A stretch of 64,000 nt of DNA from Terriglobia bacterium (lineage in GTDB: Bacteria > Acidobacteriota > Terriglobia > Terriglobales > Acidobacteriaceae): positions 1 through 64,000 of the forward strand of contig JAIQGE010000011.1 of the NCBI GenBank assembly GCA_020072815.1, written 5' to 3'. The notes under the pieces are model-generated. The model was not told the DNA's origin. It saw only the letters and a program-made list of their open reading frames with translations, and searched no databases. Shown piece by piece: positions 14,891 through 57,373 of this stretch; position 1 is the stretch's first letter; the number at the start of each line of letters is the position of its first letter. A program made the translations under genes and the position numbers.

Positions 14891-14899
14891 TTTGTCCTG

Positions 14900-15109
14900 T
14901 CGCTGCGCTCCAAACCGCCAGCGGTTCTCATCGTTGTTAGCTCTATCCAGCGCCTGATGCAGCGGGCTCGGCGCGTGGTCGGCCTCGCCCTTAAATATCT
15001 AGGAATGGTGCCCTCTCGCTGCGCTCCAAACCGCCAGCGGGTGCCGTACTTGTAAGCTCCATCCCGCGCCTGATGCAGCGGGCTCGGTGCGTGGTCGGCC
15101 TCGCCCTTA
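14900..15109. repeat. Two direct repeats of about 94 bp upstream of ychF
   Basis: Unit 1 is at 14900-14993 and unit 2 at 15016-15109, 116 bases apart. Both begin TCGCTGCGCTCCAAACCGCC and end with GTGGTCGGCCTCGCCCTTA; the middle is more diverged. The rest of the 14891-15268 gap holds no gene that I can support, only a short GGCAATGAGCCGTTAGCG-type stretch from 15122. Confidence 0.75.
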
Positions 15110-55221: not shown

Positions 55222-55986
55222 ATGAAGATCACGAGAATATTGCCATTCGTAGCTTTGGCTTTGGTCATTGCCACGTCAACGTTCGCGGTCGCTGCCGACC
55301 GGCCCGCGGCCCTGAGAATCACGCAAGGCCCTTCGATAGAGAGCGTTGGCGACGACTGGGCGGTCATCGCCTGGACCACCAACACCGGCGGCAGCAGCGT
55401 GGTCCGCTATGGCACCGACCCGAGGAACCTGAACCAGACTGCACAGTCACCGTATTCTGACAACGACAAGACTGCGGCGCAAAACCATAGCGTGCGACTC
55501 AAAGGCCTCACGCCTGGCTCCACGTACTATTTCACGGCATTTTCCGGCCAAGGTGAAGGCACGGGGACACAGGCCAGCAGTCCGGTGGGCCAGTTCGCGA
55601 CCAGAGGCGGGCCCCAAAATGGACGAGGCGAGGGCAGAGGCGAGGGAAGAGGTGAGGGAAGACATGAAGGAAGAGGCGAGGCAGTAAGGATCACGGATGG
55701 GCCTCGAGTGGAAGGCACCGGCTCCACCTGGGCAGTGATCGCCTGGACCACGAATACCGGCGGCAGTTCCATTGTGCGCTTCGGTACTGCCCCGGACCGT
55801 CTGGGCGGGCTGGCGCAGTCGCCCTATGCGGACAACGACAGGACCAAGGAGCAGAACCACCGCGTCCGCGTCGCAAATCTAAGACCGCATACCAGGTACT
55901 TCTTCATCGTTGATTCCGGCCAGGGCGAAGGGACAGGAACTGAGACGAGGAGCGCAGTCGGCGAGTTCAGGACCAGAGGGCGCTGA
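55222..55986 (+). CDS. Secreted protein with two fibronectin type III-like repeats
   Basis: A 254-residue exported protein (signal peptide ending TFAVAA). Two near-identical units, about residues 30-125 and 155-254, share WAVIAWTTNTGGSS and SGQGEGTGT, the strand pattern of purple-acid-phosphatase N-terminal/FN3 domains. The linker (about 133-152) is a perfect run of Gly-Arg-Gly-Glu repeats encoded by 12-base repeats at 55620-55680. No enzymatic domain follows, so it is likely a binding module. Confidence 0.8.
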   Translation: MKITRILPFVALALVIATSTFAVAADRPAALRITQGPSIESVGDDWAVIAWTTNTGGSSVVRYGTDPRNLNQTAQSPYSDNDKTAAQNHSVRLKGLTPGSTYYFTAFSGQGEGTGTQASSPVGQFATRGGPQNGRGEGRGEGRGEGRHEGRGEAVRITDGPRVEGTGSTWAVIAWTTNTGGSSIVRFGTAPDRLGGLAQSPYADNDRTKEQNHRVRVANLRPHTRYFFIVDSGQGEGTGTETRSAVGEFRTRGR

Positions 55987-56535
55987 GCCGCGCGCAGGCG
56001 AAATCCTGAGCGAAGCGTCAGGCGCGGAGTGGAGGGATCCCCAGAAACTGGCGTGAACGCCGGTGGCGAGGCCGGCTCGCGCGCCGAGCCGCCTGCTTCA
56101 ATTGCAGAATACACTCCGCAAGCTGGAGGATGTTGAGCTGGGTGGAGCGGAGCAACAAGAAAAAAGGTTGGCGGAAGCGTGTGAGGGTCGAACTTGAGCC
56201 GGTATGCGGGCGTCTGAGCCCGCAGGCGAAATCCTGAGCGTAGCGAAGGCTCTGCTTTTGCATGTGATACCAGCGAAGCTAACTCTCGCCGGTTTTGAAG
56301 TTGAGGCGCTTTCGCGGCGTCTGAGCCGCGAGCCGAAATCCTGAGCGAAGCGCCGTGAGGCGCGGCGTCGAAGGAACCCGAGGATATTGGCGGAAGCGTG
56401 TGAGAGTCGAACTCACCAGAGCCAGCAGAGCTAACTCTCGCCGGTTTTGAAGTTGAGGCGCTTTCGCGGCGTCTGAGCCGCGAGCCGAAATCCTGAGCGC
56501 AGCGCCCTGAGGCGCGGAGTCGAAGGAACCCGAGA
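55987..56535. repeat. REP-like units with tRNA-Sec 3'-half copies
   Basis: REP-like units with a CGAAATCCTGAGCG core begin at about 55999, 56227, 56334 and 56486, each followed by a GGCGCGG palindrome. From 56301, two exact 152-base units (56301-56452 and 56453-56604) each consist of about 87 bases of REP-like sequence and a 65-base copy of the 3' half of tRNA-Sec. An older, split copy lies at 56169-56195 and 56270-56300. No gene is seen here. Confidence 0.8.
56388..56452 (-). pseudogene. Detached 3' half of tRNA-Sec
   Basis: 65 bases identical, with one difference, to 56540-56604: from the CCA end through the T-arm and long variable arm to the anticodon loop. The 5' half is replaced by REP-like sequence, so it cannot make a tRNA. 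Confidence 0.85.
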
Positions 56536-56539
56536 ATGT

Positions 56540-56636
56540 TGGCGGAAGCGTGTGAGAGTCGAACTCACCAGAGCCAGCAAAGCTAACTCTCGCCGGTTTT
56601 GAAGACCGGAAGGGTCACCGGACCCCATGCGCTTCC
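56540..56636 (-). tRNA. selC: tRNA-Sec (anticodon TCA)
   Basis: 97 bases with encoded CCA. The order GGAAGCG (5' acceptor), D-arm GGGTCCGGTGACCC, anticodon stem-loop CCGGT-CTTCAAA-ACCGG with TCA, a 9-bp variable arm (AGAGTTAGC/GCTGGCTCT), T-arm GTGAG-TTCGACT-CTCAC and CGCTTCC-G-CCA matches bacterial selenocysteine tRNA, including the long variable arm. It implies that the organism decodes UGA as selenocysteine; selA, selB and selenoprotein genes are not in this window. Confidence 0.95.
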
Positions 56637-56737
56637 GCGTGGTTTCGCGTTTTTAAGTTTACACGACGGAAAAAGCAAGCAATTAGCAAATGGCAATTAG
56701 CAACTAGCCAGACGCGGTTTTGCCTAATTGCCAACTG

Positions 56738-57373
56738 CTATTTGCTGATTGCTGGAGTGATCCGCAATATGTCGTGCTTTACTTCCACCACGCGTCCGGG
56801 GAACTGCGCCGCGATGCGCTGCTTGAGTTGATCCACGGTCGGCGAGCCGTTCTCGCCGTTCAGTCCGCGAGCATCGTCCATCAGAATCACGTGTTCCTTG
56901 ATGCGATGGCTGAGAATTGTCTCCAGTTCGGTGGTCAGGCGCTGTTTGTCGCCCTGCAGGCCGGCCCAGCCGTAGTAGCCGGCGTCCAGCCAGAAGAGGG
57001 CAGGCTGGTTGAGAGTCTGGAGCAGCTCAGGAATCTTCTTCTGGCTGTCTCCTTCGAGGATGTGGATGTGCGGCCAGCGCGCGAACTTTTTTTGCGCCTG
57101 CTGCGCCAGCTGCGAATCAAATTCCACAGAATGGATTTCCTGGAAGCGGTTCTTCATGGCGGCCACCATCTCGCCGTAGTACGTCCCGGTTTCCACCAGC
57201 ACGTGCAGCCCGTAGCGCTGAGCGTACTCCAGCACCGCGCGCTGCTTGACCAGATGCGGAGAGCGCACCGGTTCTCCGCGCAGCTTCCAGTACCAGTAGT
57301 CCGGGTAATGCCCGGCGGCCTTGTAAAGACCGTAAAACGGCGTGCGTTGCAGCAATTTGCGAAATGCTTTCAT
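56738..57373 (-). CDS. Rossmann-fold methyltransferase-like protein
   Basis: A 211-residue protein. LVETGTYYGEMV is a SAM-binding glycine loop variant, IHSVEFD the acidic strand 2 end, and ILEGDSQKKIPEL and ALFWLDAGY follow in class I order. The N-terminal 50 residues are helical. Substrate unknown; such proteins often sit in cell-surface sugar loci. Its last codons (PAISK) lie in a GCAATTAGC-type repeat. Confidence 0.7.
   Translation of the reverse strand: MKAFRKLLQRTPFYGLYKAAGHYPDYWYWKLRGEPVRSPHLVKQRAVLEYAQRYGLHVLVETGTYYGEMVAAMKNRFQEIHSVEFDSQLAQQAQKKFARWPHIHILEGDSQKKIPELLQTLNQPALFWLDAGYYGWAGLQGDKQRLTTELETILSHRIKEHVILMDDARGLNGENGSPTVDQLKQRIAAQFPGRVVEVKHDILRITPAISK

Follow-up and report, generated by a model that had tools for sequence, protein, structure and literature searches.

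The tandem array that follows the intact selenocysteine tRNA gene (selC) in the window, by which we mean the whole stretch of 64,000 nucleotides analysed here, is probably the footprint of a gene-restoring mini-element. We give this reading, which comes from comparison of sequences, a probability of about 0.6. The element, which we call H, is an ORF-less double hairpin of ~60–85 bp (5' GAGRTCCTTCG ... 3' CTCAA) that also occurs dispersed at numerous further tRNA, rRNA and protein genes.

The intact tRNA-Sec gene, the two 152-bp units beside it and a third, split copy, all reported in a first-pass annotation, were confirmed by ARAGORN, Rfam and TRF (Table 1). TRF described the array at 56270-56604 as 2.2 copies of a 152-bp period with a 95% match, no indels and a score of 621. 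Each unit consists of the 65-nt tRNA-Sec 3' half, an 11-nt spacer and a 76-nt H, and the H1 core (56453-56497) fits the pattern of the dispersed copies. The first-pass annotation had called the unit length exactly constant, which holds for these two units and not for the third; 17 nt of unrelated sequence separates the 31-nt tRNA-Sec piece from H3. The detached half at 56388-56452 is identical to the tRNA-Sec gene at 64 of 65 positions (98%). The two complete 65-nt copies are thus 1 base apart and the accompanying spacers and elements differ at ~5 of 87 positions, so that the units are not an exact assembly echo. Because the units differ from one another and similar arrays are present in more than 10 other assemblies, including that of the isolate Occallatibacter savannae AB23, whose array has three units, an assembly artefact is unlikely. 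Nor is the array a chance arrangement, since a like one recurs at selC in three further genomes of the genus and at many other tRNA genes. G004, G005 and G007 have a T-loop-type insertion at tRNA-Sec, with the same 25-nt displaced end beyond H, and their tRNA-Sec is identical to that of the window. The window gene scores 73.9 bits with Rfam RF01852 (gathering threshold 47). On our reading it stays functional and the detached halves are remnants. The suggestion that these halves might give rise to tRNA-derived RNAs or act as integrase decoys found no support, and the detached half scored only 21.3 bits as tRNA-Sec, below the gathering threshold. Separately, we noted an imperfect inverted repeat of AGCAATTAGCAAATGGCAATTAG upstream of selC (window 56678-56746), with a similar one upstream of selC in G008 (L005), and a further tandem array at 14896-15109 of the window (period 116, 1.8 copies, 88% match).

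Table 1. Features of the selC region, in positions of the window.
Feature	Position	Strand	Remarks
Intact tRNA-Sec (selC)	56540-56636	minus	Anticodon TCA; ARAGORN, Rfam RF01852
tRNA-Sec 3' half, the duplicated part	56540-56604	minus	65 nt, anticodon loop CTTCAAA to CCA
Spacer ahead of H1	56529-56539	minus	11 nt
Double-hairpin element H1	56453-56528	minus	76 nt; TTCCTTCGACT...CGCTCAGGATTTCG-hairpin 2-GCCTCAA
Detached tRNA-Sec 3' half	56388-56452	minus	65 nt; CTT start directly after CTCAA of H1
Spacer of second unit	56377-56387	minus	
Double-hairpin element H2	56301-56376	minus	Second unit
Truncated piece of third tRNA-Sec 3' half	56270-56300	minus	31 nt, tRNA positions 33-63, 97% identical
Element H3	56194-56252	minus	Other subtype (GCGGGC/GCCCGC, ...GGCTCAA)
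Displaced tRNA-Sec 3' end	56169-56193	minus	25 nt, T-loop to CCA (GTTCGACCCTCACACGCTTCCGCCA)
T-run after displaced tRNA-Sec 3' end	56158-56165		
Degenerate H-like sequence	55968-56045	minus	No CTCAA end; at stop codon of ORF 55222-55986

With a strict pattern that fixes part of the sequence by construction and makes no demand on the flanks, we found 16 copies of H in the source genome and further copies in 11 relatives. In total, 144 distinct copies were collected, almost all of them from Acidobacteriales, and a scan of named genomes yielded 85 stretches with H, again nearly all from Acidobacteriales and including the isolate Occallatibacter savannae. Among 297 genomes drawn from the phylum the strict pattern was present in four, all in the same family. 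Many of the genomes are MAGs. We found no description of H in the open-access literature. All copies have CTCAGGATTTC ahead of hairpin 2 and GAGR ahead of hairpin 1, and the inserts, at ~60–150 bp, are too short for an ORF. Because the single-strand folding energy of H1 is unexceptional (z -0.57), we base the structural claim on covariation: in hairpin 2, 97% of cells are paired and 37 cells have changed on both sides, a result equalled by none of 500 shuffles, and all slid controls scored far lower in the same test. A viral origin of H was considered and rejected; one viral contig had a copy (L278), which lies in a phage-like region and has a weak duplication.

The joint between H and its target is tightly defined on one side. 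The 3' end CTCAA is joined to STT, with S at +1 in 57, T at +2 in 44 and T at +3 in 63 of 64 independent sites (background 24% for the last), and the left flank shows no conservation beyond the element's own GAG. The host gene keeps an intact end 5' of H, separated from it by a spacer of 0–53 nt, and the displaced end lies 3' of H. We also asked whether the spacer derives from the right flank by duplication and divergence and rejected this, as the overall signal was slight and p ≤ 0.05 was reached in just 2 of 38 loci. tRNA genes, which by our own estimate make up ~0.1% of such a genome, account for 22 of the 64 independent sites. In 20 of 25 tRNA cases the duplicated stretch begins at T-loop G53, exactly 24 nt from the 3' end, and it usually extends 0–2 nt, and at most 6 nt, past CCA; the other tRNA joints are in the anticodon loop, or are antisense and reach the tRNA 5' end. 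The targets comprise ~15 tRNA species, 5S rRNA and at least 10 protein genes, where translations placed H at the starts or stops of infA, rplP, dnaJ, mutM, mnmG, a sucB-like E2 and others. Sites in the source genome include tRNA-Pro (26-nt duplication), tRNA-Leu (54 nt) and tRNA-Ser, at which 25 nt of the 5' half is duplicated and the element is antisense. A detectable duplication is missing at 23 of 59 copies (~40%); in the first scan unrelated stretches mostly scored ≤10, and controls above this were due to adjacent copies within arrays. At L069 (G048 C351, ~833-880) a 23S rRNA gene is interrupted by H alone, at A|GTT between CCAAGA and GTTCATATCG, without any duplication; either the insertion is a clean one or the MAG contig is chimeric.

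Several further sites deserve mention. In several genomes H sits where a 5S rRNA gene has its 3' end (L066, L144, L245), and at L066 the two copies have terminators that are alike in shape and unlike in stem sequence. In the source genome, the stop codon of the E2 acyltransferase gene, the same gene that is end-replaced in G005, is immediately followed by an H-like element (C6 134570, L286). At L156 (G192 C13, ~99006-99059 plus 1.35 kb) a 1.35-kb unit sits between the duplicated flank and H; by eye it encodes an apparent RelE/HigB-type toxin and a helix-turn-helix antitoxin and is reminiscent of a gene cassette.

Comparison of the intact and displaced ends suggests where each came from. Across ten protein loci we counted 51 synonymous and 7 nonsynonymous differences between the two ends (pN/pS 0.04), against an expectation of ~23% synonymous changes without constraint (p=1e-25). 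Because the differences are almost only synonymous, both ends must have been under coding constraint before they met, and a dead local copy would not be expected to drift in this way. Wherever we made the comparison with relatives, the native end proved to be the displaced one. For the E2 gene of G005, the displaced C-terminus encodes VAVREYLENFNEDIG, which is typical of the genus and present in four relatives, whereas the intact gene has VAIREYLEGFNEDIG, encoded by unusual codons. In mutM the native 5' flank sits beyond H; in tRNA-Gln (L264) the acceptor stem of the displaced end differs from that of the intact gene; and at tRNA-Leu the site is empty in the relative G002, whose flank matches the flank beyond H in the source genome (G000). 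The synonymous excess, together with the native displaced ends, indicates that H arrives together with a replacement gene end, by which the host gene is preserved as it is by islands. At the tRNA-Leu locus of G000 (C12 261127-261350, L173) the gene and the displaced half share a variable arm unlike that of the genus, and here local duplication would fit better than import. G001 and G004 have detached halves with similar variable arms.

We considered whether H could be an ordinary intergenic hairpin repeat that needs no dedicated mobile unit. Natural transformation would import a donor gene end together with its H, homologous recombination inside the gene would act on one side and an illegitimate joint would form at the H end. 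This would explain the foreign ends, the presence of H at both gene starts and stops and the preference for conserved genes with sequence in common between species (tRNA, 5S, infA, rplP). However, illegitimate joints should scatter, and the T at +3 in 63/64 sites and the G53 start in 20/25 cases show that they are fixed; we therefore consider this explanation unlikely. We think it distinctly improbable that H instead transposes with a long target-site duplication, copying 20–75 bp of the host gene end, which is later altered by drift or recombination. Such a process would account for duplications that reach H or pass the gene end (L270, L233, L245), for the unusual allele shared by both tRNA-Leu copies of G000 and for spacers and right flanks that are slightly more alike than expected. 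It fails to predict the 51:7 synonymous excess, the genus-typical displaced ends or the fact that nearly all tRNA duplications stop within 0–6 nt of the gene end, and L069 is clean, with no duplication at all.

Joints in the T-loop or anticodon loop are typical of integrase targets in tRNA genes. A restored gene accompanied by a displaced fragment is also a hallmark of such targets (Islander, PMC4383910), and H could on these grounds be the attP arm of a non-autonomous integrative element, inserted site-specifically by a tyrosine integrase. We regard this as very improbable, as no tyrosine recombinase (PF00589) gene adjoins H in the genomes mapped, G011 has 7 strict copies of H against 2 tyrosine-recombinase genes genome-wide, and the sites include many tRNA species and protein genes, at 5' ends too. 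The alternative raised in the first-pass annotation, repeated integration at selC, was of the right kind, given the restored gene and the displaced old end; in detail it fails, there being no island and no adjacent integrase, an insert of ~90 bp and no specificity for selC. A selC island was likewise rejected in the source genome, where the nearest tyrosine recombinase (C11, 70997) lies on the opposite side of selC from the array. Apparent true selC islands are found in relatives, at G012 C8 60465-90365 (~30 kb) and G008 C30 17941-24057 (~6 kb); both carry displaced tRNA-Sec 3' ends, and H is not their end. A tyrosine recombinase-like sequence lies beside the tRNA-Sec fragment in G008.

Two other routes of mobilisation were examined and set aside. 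Y1 genes are present in all four H-bearing genomes tested, and none of their 20 PF01797 (Y1_Tnp) loci is flanked by H, which speaks against mobilisation by a RAYT in cis. An IS91-type Y2 transposase is missing from 10 of 14 genomes and from most of those that bear H, among them G011, G015 and G324.

Plain tandem duplication at selC, which the first-pass annotation took as the simplest reading, agrees with the 95% identity of the 152-bp units, their lack of indels and the tandem arrays of similar units at other genes, but as the origin of the unit it is contradicted and merits scarcely any credence, since the array terminates in a gene end and not in H, single-copy insertions have the same joint, that joint recurs at many tRNA, rRNA and protein genes, and dispersed H and foreign ends are left unexplained; for the last doubling, from one unit to two, it is still the best account.

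Returning to a gene-restoring mini-element, we propose that a replacement gene end and H would enter as one unit, joining at STT, and that this unit would spread between strains via recombination inside conserved gene ends. The putative enzyme would act in trans, a Y1/HUH single-strand transposase being the first suspect. Counting against this reading are the copies that show no duplication, the variable length of the spacer, the unusual allele shared by both tRNA-Leu copies of G000, the many MAGs, and the results that neither tyrosine recombinases nor Y1 genes adjoin H and that most H-bearing genomes lack a Y2 transposase. In the window array the outermost element, H3, is of the T-loop type and the two inner elements are of the anticodon-loop type, and we read H3 as an older insertion. 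The likely order of events at selC, judged from this layout, begins with H joining the T-loop of tRNA-Sec, which would give H3 and the 25-nt displaced end. A further H would then have joined the anticodon loop, displacing the 65-nt half, after which part of the middle tRNA-Sec copy may have been lost and the 152-bp unit doubled once.

More tentatively, and at somewhat less than even odds, H might represent a new class of mobile element in bacteria: a double hairpin of ~60–85 bp without an ORF, moved in trans with a neighbouring gene end, that enters single-stranded loops in tRNA, rRNA and essential protein genes and supplies a working end. H could on this reading occupy essential genes at little cost, because the replacement end works. 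Mobile DNA that restores the gene it enters is known in the form of integrase-bearing islands of kilobase size and of endonuclease ORFs in fungal mitochondria. With H the same outcome recurs on a scale of ~100 bp and with no gene, at starts as well as stops of essential genes. Confirmation of this would show a route for small repeats into essential genes, account for a class of tRNA gene fragments in Acidobacteria, suggest an origin for the decades-old tyrT repeats of E. coli and provide a codon-marked record of gene-end exchange between species.

H shares individual features with several known systems. The joint of H, S|TT, resembles the G|TT of integron cassettes, whose attC sites have RYYYAAC and GTTRRRY boxes that pair. 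The right end of IS608 has the cleavage site TCAA and the guide GAAT (PMC5934647). H may resemble such IS200/IS605 ends in having TCAA directly after a hairpin and GATT before it, three of four guide letters being those of IS608, although both motifs are inside our search pattern and their invariance is by construction. IS200/IS605 elements have a left-side TTAC target and a transposase gene, whereas H has a right-side STT preference and no transposase gene; when target duplication was checked against this family, L069 was clean and most other H sites had a gene-end duplication. We treat the possible likeness (single-stranded loop targets, TCAA end, GATT) as a lead only. REP/BIME sequences with RAYT (TnpA-REP) are, like H, short, paired and dispersed hairpins that are mobilised in trans if at all. 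The first-pass label "REP-like" is therefore fair for the hairpins and goes no further: the GTAG foot motif that defines REPs (PMC8266576) is absent from H copies, no RAYT gene among the loci examined is flanked by H, and gene-end duplication is no feature of REPs.

In tRNA-gene islands the target is split and then restored by the element and the displaced fragment marks the far end (PMC4383910), much as with H. In contrast to these islands, H is ~100 bp long, has no integrase, is confined to no single target gene or family and also occurs at gene starts. Fungal mitochondrial mobile ORFs (Allomyces atp6; Glomus atp6, atp9, cox2 and nad3) bring an inserted end that replaces the native one with mostly synonymous differences, and the native end of these hybrid genes is displaced downstream and resembles close relatives (PMC3630166). 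Those elements carry homing endonuclease ORFs, whereas H has no ORF and its main targets are tRNA genes. Finally, the 178-bp repeats (rttR/tpr) at tyrTV of E. coli are, like H, tandem hairpin-rich units that each end in the 3' end of the upstream tRNA, the unit end in NC_000913 being AATCCTTCCCCCACCACCA, with the joint in the T-loop. They occupy one locus, whereas H is dispersed, and an Rfam scan of the window gave no RtT match at E values up to 1. We know of no dispersed element and no replaced protein-gene ends associated with tyrTV. None of the tyrTV repeats, the fungal hybrid genes and the tRNA-gene islands matches H in size, absence of an ORF and range of targets, and its closest analogues are the E. 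coli tyrTV repeats and the fungal mitochondrial hybrid genes.
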